Of a DNA stretch of 64,000 bases, positions 31,151 through 38,743 are shown piece by piece. This stretch comes from Pontibacter sp. FD36. GTDB taxonomy: Bacteria; Bacteroidota; Bacteroidia; Cytophagales; Hymenobacteraceae. The stretch covers positions 62,001 to 126,000 of the forward strand of contig NZ_JADPMP010000007.1 of the NCBI RefSeq assembly GCF_015686655.1, in the 5' to 3' direction. The position numbers and the translations under genes are program-made. The notes below the pieces were generated by a model. That model worked only from the letters and a program-made list of their open reading frames with translations. It was not told the DNA's origin and did not search any database. Positions within the stretch are counted from its first letter, which is position 1. Every line of letters begins with the position of its first letter.

Positions 31151-31783
31151 TTATTTCGAGAGCCCCTGTAGAAACTCGCGCACTTCTTTGGTGTCATATT
31201 CGGCCATACCTTCCTGCTTGGCTACGATCTTACCTTCCGGTGAGATGATGAACGTGGTAGGTATAGCGGTGCTGTAAAACTCCTGCGGAAACTGGCTGGC
31301 TGGCATGTATACTGGGAAGGTATAGCCCTTCTTGTCGATAAATTTTTTCACCTTGTCCATGCCCCCTTCATCTACCGACAGCATCACAAAAGCGACTTTA
31401 TTCGGGTCCATTTTCTTATACAAACTGTGGATGTTTGGCATCTCGGCAATACAAGGCGGACACCAGGTTGCCCAGATGTTCAGGAAGATGACCTTGCCCT
31501 TCAGACTTTCGAATGCTACGGTTTTACCATCAAGGCCTACCATCTTGAAGCCGGCACCTGCCATGGGTGCCCCTGCAGATGCATCAACTGTAGTTTCGGT
31601 TGGGGTTTTCACAACCTCATCTATGGCCGGCACATCCGCATTTTTTATACCTGTTGCCAACAGGATGCGCTGCACCTGGCCGATAGCTTCGGTATGCAGA
31701 CCTGTCAGGTACAGGATGCCGAAAATGCCGAGTGTGATCGCCCAGCCAGGTATATTCTTGATTGAAAATTTATTCTTATCCAT
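31151..31783 (-). CDS. TlpA-type membrane-anchored thioredoxin
   Basis: 210 residues. An N-terminal TM (ITLGIFGILYLTGL, about 16-30) anchors it, and the thioredoxin domain holds WCPPC (107-111) and the cis-proline region STAIPTTFII. These proteins reduce disulfides in the periplasm, often with redox partners such as ResA/CcmG. It is encoded just downstream of the DoxX-DsrE gene on the same strand (89 bp gap), so a shared role in periplasmic thiol or sulfur chemistry is plausible. Confidence 0.88.
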   Translation of the reverse strand: MDKNKFSIKNIPGWAITLGIFGILYLTGLHTEAIGQVQRILLATGIKNADVPAIDEVVKTPTETTVDASAGAPMAGAGFKMVGLDGKTVAFESLKGKVIFLNIWATWCPPCIAEMPNIHSLYKKMDPNKVAFVMLSVDEGGMDKVKKFIDKKGYTFPVYMPASQFPQEFYSTAIPTTFIISPEGKIVAKQEGMAEYDTKEVREFLQGLSK

Positions 31784-31872: not shown

Positions 31873-32766
31873 TTATAACTCTACAGTGGTATAGCCTTGT
31901 TCCTGCAGGTCGAACATATAGGTCAGGCCGTTCGGAATCACTTCCATACCGTCTACCAGTGAACCCGCGTCGATGTTGAACTGCTTAAGAGACATCCCGC
32001 AGACGCGGTAAGTGATGCCAGCCGCTTTGCCTTTTTCAAATTCACCGGCCAGGTTACTGCCTTTCACAAATGCCTCCACAGACTTACCACAGGCCATCAC
32101 TACAAAACTTTCCCGCTGGTAGCGGCTATCCTGTGTGATGGTTTCAGCTGTATTTACAGCAGCTTTCAGGTGGTTAGGCTGACTGATCAGCACTGCGTAT
32201 TTTTTGCCGTTAGTCTCTGCTGCTGCGGAGGCTGTAGTACTTTGGGCAGTTGTCGTGCCGGTAGCACATGAGCCGAGGAACACCAGCATACCCAATGCCA
32301 GCATGGCAACATAATTACTGTTTATTTTATTCTTTTGAATTGATTTCATCTGATTGTTTTGAAAAAATGTCTGGTCTAGCCCATAGTGGACGGCACCATT
32401 CACAATGAAAAACAGGAGCATCCCGATCAGGGCAATGTTCTTGAACAATGGTCCGGAACCTTCGGCACCCACCTGCACGGTAAGCGTGATCGGAATCAGG
32501 ATGGCCAGCAGTAAAGCGGCCGCCAGTCTGGTTTTAAAACCCGCCAACAGCATAGAGCCTCCGATAAGCAAACCCACACCCGACAAAATAATCAGGGTTT
32601 CGGCGGGTGCTATCCAGGTAGCCAAACTGGCAAAAGGTGCCTTTTCAAGTCGGGCGGCTGCACCGGCAGTTTGAAGAATGTGATTGAAACCAGCCAGGAT
32701 AAAGATCAGGCTACCCATGATGCGGAGCACCAGGAATGATATTTTTTGCAAAGGTGTATTTTCCAT
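31873..32766 (-). CDS. DoxX-DsrE fusion protein with internal signal peptide
   Basis: 297 residues from the ATG at 32766. The first 139 residues are a four-TM DoxX-type protein (FLVLRIMGSLIFILAGFNHI...). The chain continues without a stop into a second part that begins with an internal Met (residue 140), a full signal peptide and lipobox (ALGMLVFLGSC, Cys167), followed by a DsrE/DsrF-like alpha/beta domain (YAVLISQPNHLKAAVNTAE..., FVVMACGKSVEAF..., GITYRVCGMSLKQF...). In relatives such parts are often separate genes; here they share one frame. The DsrE part could act on the periplasmic face. Either a true fusion or internal initiation at 32349 could be used. Confidence 0.7.
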   Translation of the reverse strand: MENTPLQKISFLVLRIMGSLIFILAGFNHILQTAGAAARLEKAPFASLATWIAPAETLIILSGVGLLIGGSMLLAGFKTRLAAALLLAILIPITLTVQVGAEGSGPLFKNIALIGMLLFFIVNGAVHYGLDQTFFQNNQMKSIQKNKINSNYVAMLALGMLVFLGSCATGTTTAQSTTASAAAETNGKKYAVLISQPNHLKAAVNTAETITQDSRYQRESFVVMACGKSVEAFVKGSNLAGEFEKGKAAGITYRVCGMSLKQFNIDAGSLVDGMEVIPNGLTYMFDLQEQGYTTVEL

Positions 32767-32915: not shown

Positions 32916-33278
32916 TTAAGAAAATCGCGGTGGGTCTGGATCAGCCCCCAGACTAGGGGCCAGAAGTTTAGGAGGGGAGAGGAGTCTAAACTGCTGCCTG
33001 ACTGAGGAAGTAGAAAATAAATCTGACTGTGTGTCATGCACCACAGCGAAGAGCTGCTGGCCACAGTCGATCGTGACATTGGCTGCGTTCTTTTGCTCTG
33101 AATGTGTCTGGTGCTTCAGGCATTTCTTCGCACAGGGGCGCTTGAGTTTTTTATGACTATCCGCTGCTTTCAGTTCGCTTTTAAGGGCACAGGCCATTCC
33201 GTTCGCAGGCTTATTTGGCTGGGCCAGCGTAAAAAGGAAAAGCATAGTGCTTAAAAGAAGTAGCAGATAGTTGTTCAT
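32916..33278 (-). CDS. small exported Cys/His protein
   Basis: 120 residues from the ATG at 33278 (MNNYLLLLLSTMLFLFTLA), with a signal peptide. The mature part has a Cys/Lys/His-rich stretch (MACALKSELK..., then CAKKCLKHQTHSEQ) and a Cys at about residue 73. It resembles the N-terminal half of HYC_CC_PP-type proteins but lacks the CC and PP parts. Possibly a metal- or thiol-binding protein. A longer frame from 33431 overlaps the MFS gene and is rejected. Confidence 0.45.
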   Translation of the reverse strand: MNNYLLLLLSTMLFLFTLAQPNKPANGMACALKSELKAADSHKKLKRPCAKKCLKHQTHSEQKNAANVTIDCGQQLFAVVHDTQSDLFSTSSVRQQFRLLSPPKLLAPSLGADPDPPRFS

Positions 33279-33333: not shown

Positions 33334-34596
33334 TTAAGCTTTGGCCACCAAGCTGGTCCCGCACTCGGAGCTGTGCCACAAGAGCTTTTTGGTGCAGCAC
33401 ATCCGTATCTCGGAAAGTATACCTGCCCCAACGGTCAGGATGGCCGTGCCCAATAGTACAAATTCCACGCCAAAGAGGTCACTGAAAACACCCGCCGCTA
33501 CGGCTCCGGCCACATAGCCAAAGTCACGCCAAAAACGGAAGATGCCCAGGCTCTGCGGACGCTGCTCGGGGTGCGTATTTTCGGCCACGACTGACAGGAA
33601 GTTAGGATATACCAGTGCCGTACCAACTCCCAACAGTACCAAAGCTGCGATGACAATTGCGTAGGCCTGGCTGAAGAATAACATGCCGATGGCCACGCCC
33701 TGTAGCATCATGCCAATGCCCAACAACTGTTTCTTGCAAAGTACATCACCCAATTTGCCCGTCACCAACTGCCCGATACCCCACACAGCCGGATATATAC
33801 CTGCCAACAGACCCACTTGCTGTAAGGTATAGCCTTTGCTCATGAGCAGCACCGGCAGCAAGCCCCACAGAATACCGTCGTTCATGTTATTGACAAAGCC
33901 GCTCAGCGTGACAGAACCCAGGTTGGCATGGCGCCAGGTCGTGTCTTTCCAAACGTTGCGAAGTAGCGGTATGCTGGTCTGTGCCGTCTCCGTTTTAACG
34001 TGTGCATGTGTATCGCGCACCAGGAACCAGGTCAGGAGCAAACCAATAATCGAAAAAGCGATACCTGGTATAAAAGCGTAAGTGACTTCCCCTGTTGAGG
34101 AGGCGATATAGCCGGCCAAAAACGCCACCAGACCGACAGCCAGGTAACCGGCAAACTCGTTGATGCCCATGGCCAGTCCGCGGTTTTTCTCACCCACGAG
34201 GTCAATCTTCATGACCACGGTAGCCGACCAGGCTAGGCCTTGGTTGATACCAAGCAGTAAGTTAGCAAAGACCACCCACCACCAGTTATCCGCATAGAGC
34301 AGGAGCCAGGGCACAGGCAAGGCAAAGAGCCAGCCAATTAGCAGCAGTTGCTTTCGGGTGAAACGCAATGTGAGCCTGCCCATCATCATGTTGGCAATAG
34401 ACTTAGCCAGACCGAAGGCCACGATAAACGACAGAAGCGCCGTGTGTCCGCTGATACCGAAAACCGTTTCGGCAAACTCAGGTATAACAGAGCGCTCCAG
34501 TCCAACCATGGCACCCACAAAACCGTTGATCAGCACCAGCAGCCAGAACTGCGTGGCGTTTTCTCTCAATCCAAGTTTTGTATCTGTAGTCGACAT
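33334..34596 (-). CDS. MFS transporter
   Basis: 420 residues with twelve TM segments and MFS signatures: GRLTLRFTRKQLLLIGWL (loop 2-3) and GKLGDVLCKKQLLGIGM (loop 8-9). The C-terminus holds four Cys in MCCTKKLLWHSSECG, unusual for MFS. It sits between the DsrE-fusion/TlpA genes and the YeeE genes on the same strand, so a sulfur or thiol substrate is possible, but the family is too broad to decide. Confidence 0.8.
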   Translation of the reverse strand: MSTTDTKLGLRENATQFWLLVLINGFVGAMVGLERSVIPEFAETVFGISGHTALLSFIVAFGLAKSIANMMMGRLTLRFTRKQLLLIGWLFALPVPWLLLYADNWWWVVFANLLLGINQGLAWSATVVMKIDLVGEKNRGLAMGINEFAGYLAVGLVAFLAGYIASSTGEVTYAFIPGIAFSIIGLLLTWFLVRDTHAHVKTETAQTSIPLLRNVWKDTTWRHANLGSVTLSGFVNNMNDGILWGLLPVLLMSKGYTLQQVGLLAGIYPAVWGIGQLVTGKLGDVLCKKQLLGIGMMLQGVAIGMLFFSQAYAIVIAALVLLGVGTALVYPNFLSVVAENTHPEQRPQSLGIFRFWRDFGYVAGAVAAGVFSDLFGVEFVLLGTAILTVGAGILSEIRMCCTKKLLWHSSECGTSLVAKA

Positions 34597-34685
34597 GGTC
34601 AGTATATTTTTCTAAACATGCGTGAAAGCCTCTGCCTCAGGTAGAAAGCTTACAACGCATTTTCAACTATTAGCCCAATTTCTTC

Positions 34686-35099
34686 TTAATGTGGCAATTT
34701 GTCTTTGATGGCACCGTACAGATACGTACCTGCCAGAGCACCGCCGATGGCGATAAAGATCGCCCAGTAGCTAAAGCCCACGTTGACGAACATCGGACCC
34801 GGACAAGCCCCAGTCAGCGCCCAACCCAAACCGAAGATGGTACCGCCGATGATGTAGCGCGGAACAGACATTTCCTTCGGTGTAAATACGATCGGGTTGC
34901 CCTGGAAGTCGCGCAGATTGAACTTCTTGATCACCAGCGTGGCAATAGTGCCCAGCACGACAGCCGTACCGATGATGCCATACATGTGAAAGTCCTGGAA
35001 GCGGAACATCTCCTGAATACGATACCACGAAATCGCCTCCGACTTACTCATCACGATGCCGAACAAAATGCCGGCTATTATAAACTTTATACTTTTCAC
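34686..35099 (-). CDS. YeeE/YedE-family transporter, half A (DUF6691-like)
   Basis: 137 residues. The start is GTG at 35099 (MKSIKFIIAGILFG); no ATG lies upstream in frame. Four TM segments and the motif GGTIFGLGWALTGACPGPMF, whose Cys is the conserved relay position of YeeE-like thiosulfate transporters, are present. It pairs with the gene at 35205, which carries the other half of the same fold. The two halves together would form a TsuA-like channel for thiosulfate or another sulfur oxyanion. It is separated from the partner by an AT-rich repeat of ~105 bp. Confidence 0.85.
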   Translation of the reverse strand: MKSIKFIIAGILFGIVMSKSEAISWYRIQEMFRFQDFHMYGIIGTAVVLGTIATLVIKKFNLRDFQGNPIVFTPKEMSVPRYIIGGTIFGLGWALTGACPGPMFVNVGFSYWAIFIAIGGALAGTYLYGAIKDKLPH

Positions 35100-35101
35100 T
35101 T

Positions 35102-35204
35102 TTCTAATGATTAATGACGAATGATTAATGAATAATTGATGAAAATGGACAAGTAATGAATAATGCTGGATACTTATTAATCATTATTCATTACTCACTA
35201 TTCA
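35102..35204. repeat. AT-rich palindromic repeat between the YeeE genes
   Basis: A run of near-repeats of ATGATTAATGA on the left and TTATTCATTACTCACTATTCATTA on the right is mostly complementary, forming an imperfect palindrome. Similar AT-rich tracts are typical intergenic repeats in Bacteroidota. A small relative lies at 17101-17129. Confidence 0.55.
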
Positions 35205-35762
35205 TTAAAAGATTAAGGGTAGCAGCACATAGGTGGTGATCAGTCCGCCGATGAAGAAGCCGATCACGGCGATAAGCGACGGCAGCTGCAGGTTGGAGAT
35301 TCCACTGATGGCGTGACCAGAAGTACAGCCTCCGGCGTAGCGGGCACCGAATCCGATTGCAAATCCGCCTAGCAGCAGGATCAGAAATCCCTTGAGGGTG
35401 AAGGCAGCGCTTAGGCTAAAGATTTCCGTGGGCTGCATACCGTCAGGGGCAGAGATACCCAATTGCTGCAGGTCCTGGATGGTGGCCTGGGAGATCTGCA
35501 CCGGCTCGCCCGAGGAGAGGAACTCCGCCGAGATAAAACCGCCTATGATGGCACCTACCAGGAACAGCAGGTTCCAGGACTGAGAGCGCCAGTCGAAATC
35601 AAAAAACTTAACCGATTTGCCGGCGCCGCATGCCGAGCAGATGGTGCGCAGGTTAGCCGAGAAACCAAACGACTTGCCGAAAAACAACAGCAGCACCATG
35701 ACAAAAGCGATCACGATACCCGAGGTATACCATGGCCATGGTTGGCTTATAAACTCTAACAT
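35205..35762 (-). CDS. YeeE/YedE-family transporter, half B
   Basis: 185 residues with five TM segments. The conserved motif is FAIGFGARYAGGCTSGHAISG, whose Cys matches the second relay cysteine of YeeE/TsuA; an extra Cys pair (ICSACGAGK) lies near residue 42-45. With half A at 34686 it would form a bacterial thiosulfate/sulfur-compound uptake or export channel in the inner membrane. Both are in the middle of the sulfur locus. It starts 92 bp after the rhodanese stop. Confidence 0.85.
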   Translation of the reverse strand: MLEFISQPWPWYTSGIVIAFVMVLLLFFGKSFGFSANLRTICSACGAGKSVKFFDFDWRSQSWNLLFLVGAIIGGFISAEFLSSGEPVQISQATIQDLQQLGISAPDGMQPTEIFSLSAAFTLKGFLILLLGGFAIGFGARYAGGCTSGHAISGISNLQLPSLIAVIGFFIGGLITTYVLLPLIF

Positions 35763-35854
35763 ATTTTTAATCTATTTAGTAATTGGTGATTTAGAGAGAA
35801 AGCAGGGAAGGAGCGAGGTCGCGTGCCCCTTCCATAGCTGCTTTTAGATTTTTA

Positions 35855-36184
35855 TTAGTTGTTTGGCCAGGCACCGATGCCTCCTGCGAGGTTATAGCAC
35901 TTGAAGCCCTGTGCGCTCATCAGATCGCAGGCAGATCCGCTGCGGTTGCCGCTGCGGCAGAATACGAAGTACTCTTTGTCTTTGTCCAGTGAGCCCAGTG
36001 CATTCTGGAACTGACCTGTGGTTACGTCCAAATTCTTCGCGCCTTTGATCGTACCAGAGGCAAATTCACCAGCGGTTCGTACATCCAGCAACTCAGCTTT
36101 GGCAGCGCTCTGGAATTTTGTTTTGAATGATTTTCCGTCCAGGTTTTCGTAGTTCTTGGGGGCGGATTTAAAGATATTGAACAT
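35855..36184 (-). CDS. rhodanese (sulfurtransferase) domain protein
   Basis: 109 residues, a single rhodanese domain: ELLDVRTAGEFASGTIKGAKNLDV followed by the active-site loop FCRSGNRSGS with catalytic C76. It transfers sulfane sulfur to thiols or cyanide in the cytoplasm. A CRP-like site precedes its promoter. It lies in the sulfur locus just upstream of the YeeE pair and may feed or take sulfur from the CstB-like enzymes. Confidence 0.88.
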   Translation of the reverse strand: MFNIFKSAPKNYENLDGKSFKTKFQSAAKAELLDVRTAGEFASGTIKGAKNLDVTTGQFQNALGSLDKDKEYFVFCRSGNRSGSACDLMSAQGFKCYNLAGGIGAWPNN

Positions 36185-36227
36185 GGCTTTTATGCGTTTA
36201 ATGTTTGTCTTATTTCAATTTACTATA

Positions 36228-36271
36228 CAAAGGTACAGGTATCATAAAACAGGTTCAGTGACTTTGGTCAC
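36228..36271 (-). promoter_or_regulatory. Crp/Fnr-type site and promoter of the rhodanese gene
   Basis: GTGAC-TTTG-GTCAC (36258-36271) lies exactly 22 bp upstream of the -7 element TACCTTTG (36235 to 36228). Its centre falls near -41, the class II activator position. The same arrangement is at four other promoters nearby. Confidence 0.75.
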
Positions 36272-36299
36272 GCAGCATGGAAGGGCCTTAAAATAATCA

Positions 36300-36320
36300 G
36301 GGCCAGCTTGTGACTGGCCC
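36300..36320 (-). terminator. terminator of the 37757 CstB-like gene
   Basis: A stem GGGCCAG / CTGGCCC (36300-36306 with 36314-36320) lies 25 bp after the stop and is followed on the - strand by TGATTATTTTA. Confidence 0.6.
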
Positions 36321-36344
36321 CGATCAAACTAAACTAAACCAAAA

Positions 36345-37757
36345 TTACTTCAGTGTAGAAGGGCAAACGTATGCCGTTCTAGGTATAGCTGTCTCAGCAA
36401 TGGCCTTAAATCCACCTTCAACGTTCACCACATTGTCGAAGCCTCTTGCCTTCAGGATAGAAGCTGCAATCATTGAGCGGTAGCCACCGGCGCAATGTAT
36501 GTACATGTCCTCGTTTTTCGGCAACTCAGCCAAGTGGTCGTTTAGGTAGTCCAGTGGCGCATGCTGGGCTGTTTCTACGTGCTCGGCCTGGTACTCGCCC
36601 GGCTTGCGCACGTCTACTACTTTGATGCTGTTGTTTTGGGCGTAGTCCGCGGCAAACTCAGCTGCAGAGATAGACTTGATCGTGTCCACTTCTTTGCCAG
36701 CTGCTGCCCAGGTTTCGAAGCCGCCTTGCAGATATCCCAGCGTATTGTCGTAGCCTACACGGGCCAGTCGGGTCACTACTTCTTCTTCACGGCCTTCATC
36801 AGCGACGAACAGGATGGGCTGTTGTACATCCGGAATCAGGGCGCCTACCCAAGGGGCAAAGCTGCCGTCGATGCCGATATTGATCGAGTTCGGGATAAAA
36901 CCAGCTGCAAAAGTTTCCGGCTTGCGTGTGTCAAGTACCAGCGCACCCGTTTCGTTCACAGCAGCCTCAAAAGCCTCCGGCGACAGTGCCTGCTGGCCTT
37001 GCGTCAGCACGTCCTCGATGTTGGCATAGCCTTCCTTGTTCATCTTCACGTTCATCGGGAAGTAGCCCGGAGGAGGCAGCAAACCGTCTGTTACTTCTTT
37101 CACAAACTCTTCTTTCGTCATGTCGGCACGCAAGGCATAGTTTGACTTCTTCTGGTTACCCAGCAGGTCAGTTGTTTCCTTGCTCATGTTTTTGCCACAG
37201 GCAGAACCAGCACCGTGCGCAGGGTATACCACCACGTCATCCGGCAAAGTCATGATCTTGTTGCGCAGCGAGTCGAACAGGTGTGCGGCCAGTTGCTCTT
37301 CCGTCAGATCAGATTTCACGGCCAAATCAGGACGCCCTACGTCACCGATGAACAGTGTGTCACCAGAAAATATCGCTGTTTCCTTACCGTTCTCGTCGAG
37401 CAGCAGGTAAGTCGTCGACTCCATGGTGTGACCCGGTGTGTGCAGCACCTTGATGATCACATTGCCCAGTTTCAGTTCCTCACCGTCAGTGGCAATATGC
37501 GCTTCAAAAGTAGGTTGCGCATTAGGGCCAAAAACGATCTGGGCACCACTGGCTTTTGCCAGGTCCACGTGACCCGAAACGAAGTCGGCGTGGAAGTGCG
37601 TCTCCAGTACATATTTAATCTTTGCGTTGGCCTTTTCAGCTTTCTCCAGGTATGGCTTGATCTCGCGCAGTGGGTCTACAATAGCTACTTCGCCATTGCT
37701 CTCGATGTAGTAAGCACCCTGTGCCAAACATCCGGTATATATCTGTTCTACTTTCAT
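36345..37757 (-). CDS. CstB-like persulfide dioxygenase-rhodanese protein 1
   Basis: 470 residues from the ATG at 37757; an upstream start at 37859 would overlap the Crp-type site. Domains: metallo-beta-lactamase/persulfide-dioxygenase (1-250, ETHFHADFVSGH with HFHAD at 54-58, later HTPGHTMES and SGDTLFIGDVG); a central rhodanese without catalytic Cys (VADEGRE in its place); a C-terminal rhodanese with HCAGGYRS, C422. This is the order of CstB, which oxidises persulfides and transfers sulfur. The motif has F where most family members have H/Y after the Asp. It acts on low-molecular-weight persulfides in the cytoplasm. Confidence 0.9.
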   Translation of the reverse strand: MKVEQIYTGCLAQGAYYIESNGEVAIVDPLREIKPYLEKAEKANAKIKYVLETHFHADFVSGHVDLAKASGAQIVFGPNAQPTFEAHIATDGEELKLGNVIIKVLHTPGHTMESTTYLLLDENGKETAIFSGDTLFIGDVGRPDLAVKSDLTEEQLAAHLFDSLRNKIMTLPDDVVVYPAHGAGSACGKNMSKETTDLLGNQKKSNYALRADMTKEEFVKEVTDGLLPPPGYFPMNVKMNKEGYANIEDVLTQGQQALSPEAFEAAVNETGALVLDTRKPETFAAGFIPNSINIGIDGSFAPWVGALIPDVQQPILFVADEGREEEVVTRLARVGYDNTLGYLQGGFETWAAAGKEVDTIKSISAAEFAADYAQNNSIKVVDVRKPGEYQAEHVETAQHAPLDYLNDHLAELPKNEDMYIHCAGGYRSMIAASILKARGFDNVVNVEGGFKAIAETAIPRTAYVCPSTLK

Positions 37758-37822
37758 GGGTATTGAATTTTGAATGCTGTATTTTTCAGGTTGAAAGGTC
37801 ACCTGCTTATCCGATGACCATA

Positions 37823-37866
37823 CAAATATCTGAATATAATCAGCGTGACACAGTGACATTGGTCAC
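37823..37866 (-). promoter_or_regulatory. Crp/Fnr-type site and promoter of CstB-like gene 1
   Basis: GTGAC-ATTG-GTCAC (37853-37866) is 22 bp upstream of a -7-like GATATTTG (37830 to 37823, one mismatch to TAnnTTTG). The site lies between tauE's stop and this gene's start. Confidence 0.7.
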
Positions 37867-37879
37867 GCAAGTGATTTTT

Positions 37880-38743
37880 TTAGAAGAAAAGCTCTTTTCC
37901 GATGATATACACCCCCATCACCAGGACGAACCAACCAAAAGCGGTTTTAAGTTTGTCGGCGTGGATCTTAGCCGAAAGAAAAGTGCCTACGAAGATGCCA
38001 ACAATCGAAATAGCTGAGAAAATACCCAGGAACATCCAGTCGATCTCGTAGTTGAAAATATCGCCAATGAATCCGAAAAGCGACTTGGCCGCGATGATCA
38101 GAAGGGAGGTACCCACGGCCATCTTCATGTTGAGTTTACTAAAGAGTACCAGCGCAGGGATGATCAAAAATCCACCGCCAGCACCTACCAATCCGGTGAG
38201 CGTACCTACTACCAGACCTTCGGCCAGAATGCCACCATAGTTGAATTTTGGCTTTGGATGCGCTGTGCCATTTCCTTCCACATCAATTTCCGTGTCGATG
38301 TTCTCGTCTACTGTATCTACAGGATCAGTGGGTGCTGTGGCAGGTGCTTTCTTCTTCCTGATCATGCTGATGGAGGCAAACACCATAAGCCCGGCAAACA
38401 GTAGCATGAGCATGATACCCTTAGTGACCATGAAATCGCCAACCGAAAAGATCTCCTCAGGTATGGCCGGCACCAGGTAGCGGCGCGTCAGGTATACGGC
38501 TACAATAGAAGGTATACCAAACACCACGGCTGTCTTCATGCTGACAAGCCCGTTTTTGTAGAATTTGTAAGAACCCACCAGGCTGGTAAGCCCCACAATA
38601 AAAAGGGAGTAGGCAGTTGAGATAACGGGACTCAGGCCGATCAGGTATACCAGTACCGGCACCGTCAGAATAGAGCCTCCGCCCCCAATTAGTCCAAGAG
38701 AAAGCCCAATCAGAAGGGCCGCTATATAACCTAGTATTTCCAT
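37880..38743 (-). CDS. TauE/SafE-family sulfite/sulfonate exporter
   Basis: 287 residues, about eight TM segments in two similar halves: [24 protein letters not shown] at the start and [22 protein letters not shown] in the second. The two Gly-rich motifs are the TauE/SafE signatures. A charged loop ([15 protein letters not shown]) separates the halves. The family exports sulfite, taurine or related sulfonates. Its place next to a CstB-like enzyme mirrors the S. aureus cst cluster, where TauE is thought to release the sulfite product. Confidence 0.88.

Follow-up and report, generated by a model that had tools for sequence, protein, structure and literature searches.

A DoxX-DsrE fusion protein of Pontibacter with a conserved lipobox inside the chain

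INTRODUCTION

In Mycobacterium tuberculosis, thiosulfate oxidation in vitro by the DoxX-SseA-SodA complex is reported to need both DoxX and the sulfurtransferase SseA (PMC7662651). TQO (thiosulfate:quinone oxidoreductase; DoxDA) is described as oxidizing thiosulfate and passing the electrons to quinone; in Acidithiobacillus ferrooxidans doxDA occurs together with rhodanese and resA genes, and the same source terms the mechanism of TQO in Acidithiobacillus unclear (PMC6335251). Within the DsrE/DsrF family, A. vinosum DsrE is reported to bind sulfur on its conserved Cys78 (PMC3397948).

Here we describe a gene that joins a DoxX domain to a DsrE domain and holds a lipobox between the two. It lies in a 64,000-nucleotide stretch of DNA from Pontibacter sp. 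FD36, the whole of which we call the window. The signal of a bacterial lipoprotein has a positive n-region, a short hydrophobic core, and a lipobox Cys. One gene for a membrane protein, an internal signal, and a periplasmic protein is known from Bradyrhizobium, where the fbcH product is cut by signal peptidase. Unlike the fusion described here, that cytochrome b-c1 precursor is a substrate of signal peptidase I, yields a haem protein and no lipoprotein, and is unrelated in sequence. In one polytopic construct, a signal peptidase I site is reported to have been introduced behind the final membrane segment so that a reporter could be released (PMC5449189). We found no natural case of LspA cutting within a membrane-protein fusion in the literature searched, and the open-licence literature yielded neither a description of an "internal lipobox" nor an account of DoxX and the DsrE family together, or with a lipoprotein.

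The closest described systems each share part of this architecture. The M. tuberculosis complex likewise combines a DoxX membrane protein with a sulfurtransferase, and serves thiosulfate oxidation and thiol homeostasis there (PMC7662651, PMC7907618); it differs in consisting of separate proteins with SseA instead of DsrE, and the parts of those reports cited here describe no covalent link. TQO (DoxD, DoxA, and the fused DoxDA) resembles the fusion in that a small DoxX-related membrane part is joined to a second domain, and a DoxDA gene adjoins the closest free DsrE genes (see below). However, the second domain of our fusion is DsrE. Because DoxD (PF04173) and DoxA (PF07680) gave no match in the fusion protein at E values up to 0.1, we rejected its membership of TQO; elsewhere in the window genome there is one weak DoxD match (29.1 bits, 81/167 positions, another contig). 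With the DsrE/DsrF family (DsrEFH, TusBCD, YchN, MTH1491, and ST0148) the fusion shares the fold and probably a conserved Cys. DsrEFH is described as cytoplasmic (PMC3397948), whereas the DsrE of the fusion has a putative export signal and is joined to a membrane protein.

RESULTS

Domain layout of the fusion

The fusion gene occupies positions 31873 to 32766 of the minus strand (ATG at 32766, stop codon at 31875-31873) and encodes 297 amino acids. A first-pass annotation of the window had given the same coordinates, with the strand unstated, and had read the gene as a four-TM DoxX protein and a DsrE domain in a single open frame; Pfam and hydropathy bear this out. All features below are on the same strand.

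The DoxX domain (residues 12-97, 32476-32733) scores 36.3 bits against PF07681 (cut-off, 23.6), which makes the protein a member of the DoxX family. Hydropathy marks hydrophobic regions at about residues 8-31, 52-78, 77-101, and 106-130, that is, four before residue 131, and the AlphaFold model has four long helices in this half; the four membrane segments are a prediction. Conserved in the DoxX half of 57 fused and free copies are R15, H29, Q98, and GPLFKN (105-110), and Cys is absent from it. A linker follows (residues 131-150, 32317-32376), the region where a stop codon and a gap would have been lost, with Met140 at 32347-32349. Next come a hydrophobic segment of 15 residues that looks like the core of a signal peptide (152-166, 32269-32313) and Cys167 (32266-32268), the last residue of the lipobox LGSC (164-167). 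Both Met140 and the LGSC had been picked out by the first-pass annotation and are present in the sequence.

The DsrE domain (residues 188-295, 31882-32205) scores 26.9 bits against PF02635 (cut-off, 22.7), and Foldseek matched its fold to 2pd2, 1l1s, 2hy5_C, and 1jx7 (E values of 8.6e-7 to 5.5e-4). Apart from Cys167, the window protein has only two cysteines, Cys226 (32089-32091) and Cys256 within CGMS (31999-32001), each of which, in the AlphaFold model, is the last residue of a beta strand or the residue right after one. Cys256 is present in 39/39 fused and 31/31 free DsrE sequences (70/70) and Cys226 in 39/39 and 26/31 (65/70). Of the two, only Cys256 has a Cys opposite it in MTH1491; it is also aligned with one in ST0148, a weak match (E value of 0.57). 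The model of the whole fusion has a mean pLDDT of 75.7 and a pTM of 0.42, with high confidence in DsrE and low confidence in the middle: pLDDT falls below 50 at residues 144-156 and 163-185, and a helix at 151-165 lies inside this low-confidence stretch. The identities CobT and IglE (NCBIfam) were dropped, as these matches were weak and far under the cut-offs.

The fusion is genuine and, in the genomes sampled, occurs within one family

Full-length fusions are present in 37 of the 204 genomes of the family. They number 39, every protein being distinct, with identities to the window protein down to 56%. By genus, the bearers are 31 of the 50 genomes of the window's genus (the other 19 have no fusion), 2 genomes of a second genus, and 4 of a third. 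Of the 21 named loci, 18 are from Pontibacter, one is from Rufibacter sediminis, and one is from Botryobacter ruber, a record that the genome set used assigns to the window's genus; these 20 all have the fusion, and the locus of Cytophaga aurantiaca has the DsrE part only. The window genome holds a single copy, its other match being weak and confined to the DoxX part. In P. akesuensis the fusion is annotated as a single 885-nt coding sequence ("DoxX family membrane protein") and sits on a 116-kb plasmid. A tblastn search of plasmids gave six records: this full fusion, the two genes as a separate pair in Salinibacter ruber, and four in which one part alone was matched. The plasmid with the P. 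akesuensis sulfur cluster is typed as mobilizable, so the cluster may spread by transfer. In P. litorisediminis, a fragment of a decayed doxX stands immediately 5' of an intact fusion (locus L045, 10001-11273), and another contig carries a further intact fusion.

None of the 39 fusions has an internal stop, and the junction is open throughout. The length of the linker varies solely by whole codons, and its pN/pS is 0.41 and its dN/dS about 0.27, from which we conclude that it is translated as protein. By the same method (Nei-Gojobori, pooled over pairs of 78-98.5% identity), dN/dS is 0.085 for DoxX (5-125) and 0.06 for DsrE; the hydrophobic segment has a value of 0.21 and the spacer (168-187) one of 0.36. 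The pooled values thus indicate a translated junction between two strongly constrained domains.

Separate doxX and dsrE genes outside the family

The phylum and order samples (395 and 390 genomes, overlapping the family) yielded no fusion in any genome beyond the family. The free relatives were drawn from these samples at an E value of 1e-8, and a few of the matched loci were left out of the locus comparison. Separate doxX and dsrE genes follow each other in this order on the same strand in 14 genomes, with a 4-nt overlap in four of them, and three genomes have the reverse order. The gene row on the Salinibacter ruber plasmid (Rhodothermota in the NCBI scheme) is TlpA, dsrE, doxX, TlpA, and DsbD. 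The C-terminal ends of the 18 free DoxX proteins compared fall at about window residues 130-148. The DsrE proteins nearest to the fused ones are free and come from Cytophaga aurantiaca and four genomes of its family; in 5/5 of these, the gene directly 3' encodes DoxD and DoxA domains. Three arrangements therefore link this DsrE to a DoxX-type membrane protein: fusion, a gene beside DoxX, and a gene beside DoxDA.

These comparisons support, at the level of sequence, the origin of the fusion from a doxX-dsrE operon. The first-pass annotation had supposed just such a pair that lost a stop codon and an intergenic gap, and had suggested looking at the locus in relatives; the parts proved to be separate outside the family and fused within it, and free DoxX ends at about 130-148. 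All fusions appear to have a single origin.

Gene neighborhood

The next gene downstream (31151-31783, minus strand) encodes a TlpA/ResA-like thioredoxin, and tblastn within loci places a TlpA homologue 3' of the fusion in 25 of 26 fusion loci, all but that of Botryobacter (L051). By the same search, no TlpA match was found near the DoxDA-linked free DsrE genes (L052 and L119 to L122). A second DsrE gene stands separately after TlpA in P. akesuensis (L123, 10703-11149); it has a signal-like N terminus of its own, and its product is 21% identical to the fused DsrE.

Upstream of the fusion lies a gene for a small protein rich in Cys and Lys (32916-33278, minus strand), which is found at this place in 21/21 loci. 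The protein has about 120 amino acids, a hydrophobic segment at its N terminus, an PCAKKCLKHQTHS-like motif, and a C terminus like DPDPPRFS, and it matched no Pfam family. Cytophaga has, 5' of dsrE, a gene at a comparable place whose small product looks exported and contains KKCKFGRK; the likeness is one of position and look. Further upstream, Pfam and the gene order in relatives delimit a sulfur cluster (33334-38743, minus strand) with genes for an MFS transporter, two YeeE/YedE-type proteins (Sulf_transp), a rhodanese, a metallo-beta-lactamase/rhodanese, and TauE. Of the 20 named fusion loci, 16 have the set of TauE, metallo-beta-lactamase/rhodanese, and rhodanese on the upstream side; L040 is cut by the end of its contig. 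One of the five DoxDA-linked loci (L120) lies within a TauE/metallo-beta-lactamase/YeeE cluster. Such a cluster is also near the gene pair in genome G495 (L118), and two TlpA-like genes follow that pair.

Export signal and lipobox

Judged by eye, nearly all of the 31 free DsrE relatives start with a signal-like segment, which in most of them ends in AQ; the N termini of two (L073 and L101) are badly placed in this comparison. The first-pass annotation had DsrE moved to the periplasm. The signal and the charge of the linker point to the periplasmic side as it said, but we rejected a new move by way of the fusion, since the free DsrE already has a signal-like N terminus. From residue 131 to the Cys, the window protein has a net charge of +2, and across 39/39 fusions the range is +2 to +6; by the positive-inside rule, this would put the linker in the cytoplasm and DsrE in the periplasm.

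A Cys ends the segment in 37/39 fusions, as [LFI][GS][SA]C; it is Tyr in L013 and Arg in L064. These 37 proteins have the positive n-region, short hydrophobic core, and lipobox Cys of a lipoprotein signal. Lipoprotein signals stand at the N terminus of the precursor, however, whereas this one covers roughly residues 141-167 of the 297 and comes after the four predicted membrane segments. The uncharged stretch before the Cys has a median of 16 residues (range, 14-25; 39 fusions), and the polar-free run is 12-18 residues in 34/39. No lipobox was found in the 31 free DsrE proteins. The lipobox therefore appears to be a feature of the fused form (37/39 versus 0/31), although a free ancestor outside the samples could have had one, and the count of 37/39 does not represent 37 independent events, since the fusions are apparently of one origin.

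On a tree built from the fusion proteins themselves, with the alignment of the linker taken as fixed, lipobox columns 164, 165, 166, and 167 changed 4, 3, 5, and 2 times. These are the four lowest counts among columns 138-177, and columns 151-163 average 11.8. It thus seems that the lipobox is under selection in the fused proteins. The two fusions without the Cys indicate that it is dispensable at least sometimes. Both keep the frame and both domains and are natural tests of the need for lipidation. In L064, the sequence VQAQ, which resembles a signal peptidase I site, follows shortly after the Arg; a pattern like xxAQ, AH, or AN is found within 16 residues of the Cys in 27/39 fusions and is perhaps the remnant of an old cleavage site. 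The window genome has a gene of the LspA family.

An internal start

The first-pass annotation had regarded Met140 as a second start. The column has Met in 6/39 fusions and Ile in the near relatives L005 and L035. At least 16 residues before the lipobox, an in-frame ATG is present in 18/39 and some ATG, GTG, or TTG in 27/39, which allows internal starting in single species; the remaining 12/39 have none. On these counts we rejected Met140 as a general mode of starting, and it is a probable relic of the old dsrE start.

DISCUSSION

The surprising part of this protein, on present sequence evidence, is the conserved lipobox within the fused chain. The simplest reason for such conservation would be that the lipobox is still lipidated and cut. 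Our best overall reading, to which we give a probability of about one-half, is that doxX and dsrE are fused, that the precursor is lipidated and cut at Cys167, and that the products are DoxX and a periplasmic DsrE lipoprotein that acts with TlpA in sulfane-sulfur oxidation. We infer the cutting, lipidation, topology, substrate, electron route, and catalysis. An old doxX-dsrE pair of Bacteroidota would have been fused by loss of the doxX stop in the ancestor of Pontibacter, Rufibacter, and their kin. In the single chain, the four membrane segments of DoxX would have both ends in the cytoplasm, and the former signal sequence of DsrE would carry DsrE across the membrane. Cys167 would then probably be lipidated by Lgt while still in the fused precursor and the chain cut by LspA, which would supply the DoxX protein and a lipid-anchored periplasmic DsrE at 1:1. 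By analogy, DsrE may use Cys256 (with Cys226) to carry sulfane sulfur and may exchange thiols with the adjacent TlpA, and electrons from the oxidation of thiosulfate or persulfide may travel through DoxX to quinone; quinone reduction is an analogy because this DoxX belongs to PF07681 and not to DoxD.

How do other explanations compare? That doxX and dsrE are separate genes outside the family would suit a sequencing or assembly error that deleted the stop between them, and the first-pass annotation had asked for a search for such an error near 32355. With 39/39 distinct homologues from 37 genomes open and a single coding sequence in P. akesuensis, an error there is excluded and this explanation is next to impossible. 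Another candidate is an uncut protein with five segments, in which the old signal stays in the membrane permanently as a fifth helix and holds DsrE next to DoxX; Cys167 would then be a relic or else a thiol at the edge of the membrane. Fusion of proteins that act together is common, and L013 and L064 retain the frame and both domains with Tyr or Arg in place of the Cys. Against this, the lipobox columns are the slowest of 138-177 while the rest of the segment changes freely, and the segment, with its polar-free run of 12-18 residues in 34/39, is short for a membrane helix; we regard the uncut protein as rather unlikely.

The DsrE half could also, or mainly, be made as a free lipoprotein from internal starts such as Met140. 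The MKS... of the window does resemble an old dsrE start, and the 27/39 fusions with some ATG, GTG, or TTG far enough ahead of the Cys (18/39 with ATG) would permit it. Given that 12/39 have no such codon, that Met140 is Met in 6/39 and Ile in L005 and L035, and that the linker always keeps its frame and is constrained as protein, we hold this to be improbable. The first-pass annotation had offered the choice between a fifth membrane segment and a separately started lipoprotein; a third option, cutting at the internal lipobox, fits better. What our comparison adds to it is that the lipobox seems tied to the fused form and forms the slowest-changing positions of residues 138-177.

If cut at the internal lipobox, the fusion would be a natural polyprotein that gives rise to a polytopic membrane protein and a lipoprotein, with Lgt and LspA acting behind four membrane segments. 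We tentatively put forward this view, together with the idea that the fusion is a sign of a general DoxX-DsrE-TlpA module by which Bacteroidota and relatives oxidize sulfane sulfur in the periplasm. Should cutting at this internal site occur, the maturation of lipoproteins would extend beyond N-terminal signals, and searches for lipoproteins that consider the N terminus only would miss such products. The fusion also serves as a "Rosetta stone": together with the forms encoded by neighboring genes, it links DoxX and DoxDA to an exported DsrE, often with TlpA, and so presents DoxX/DoxDA, DsrE, and TlpA as a testable set of partners.
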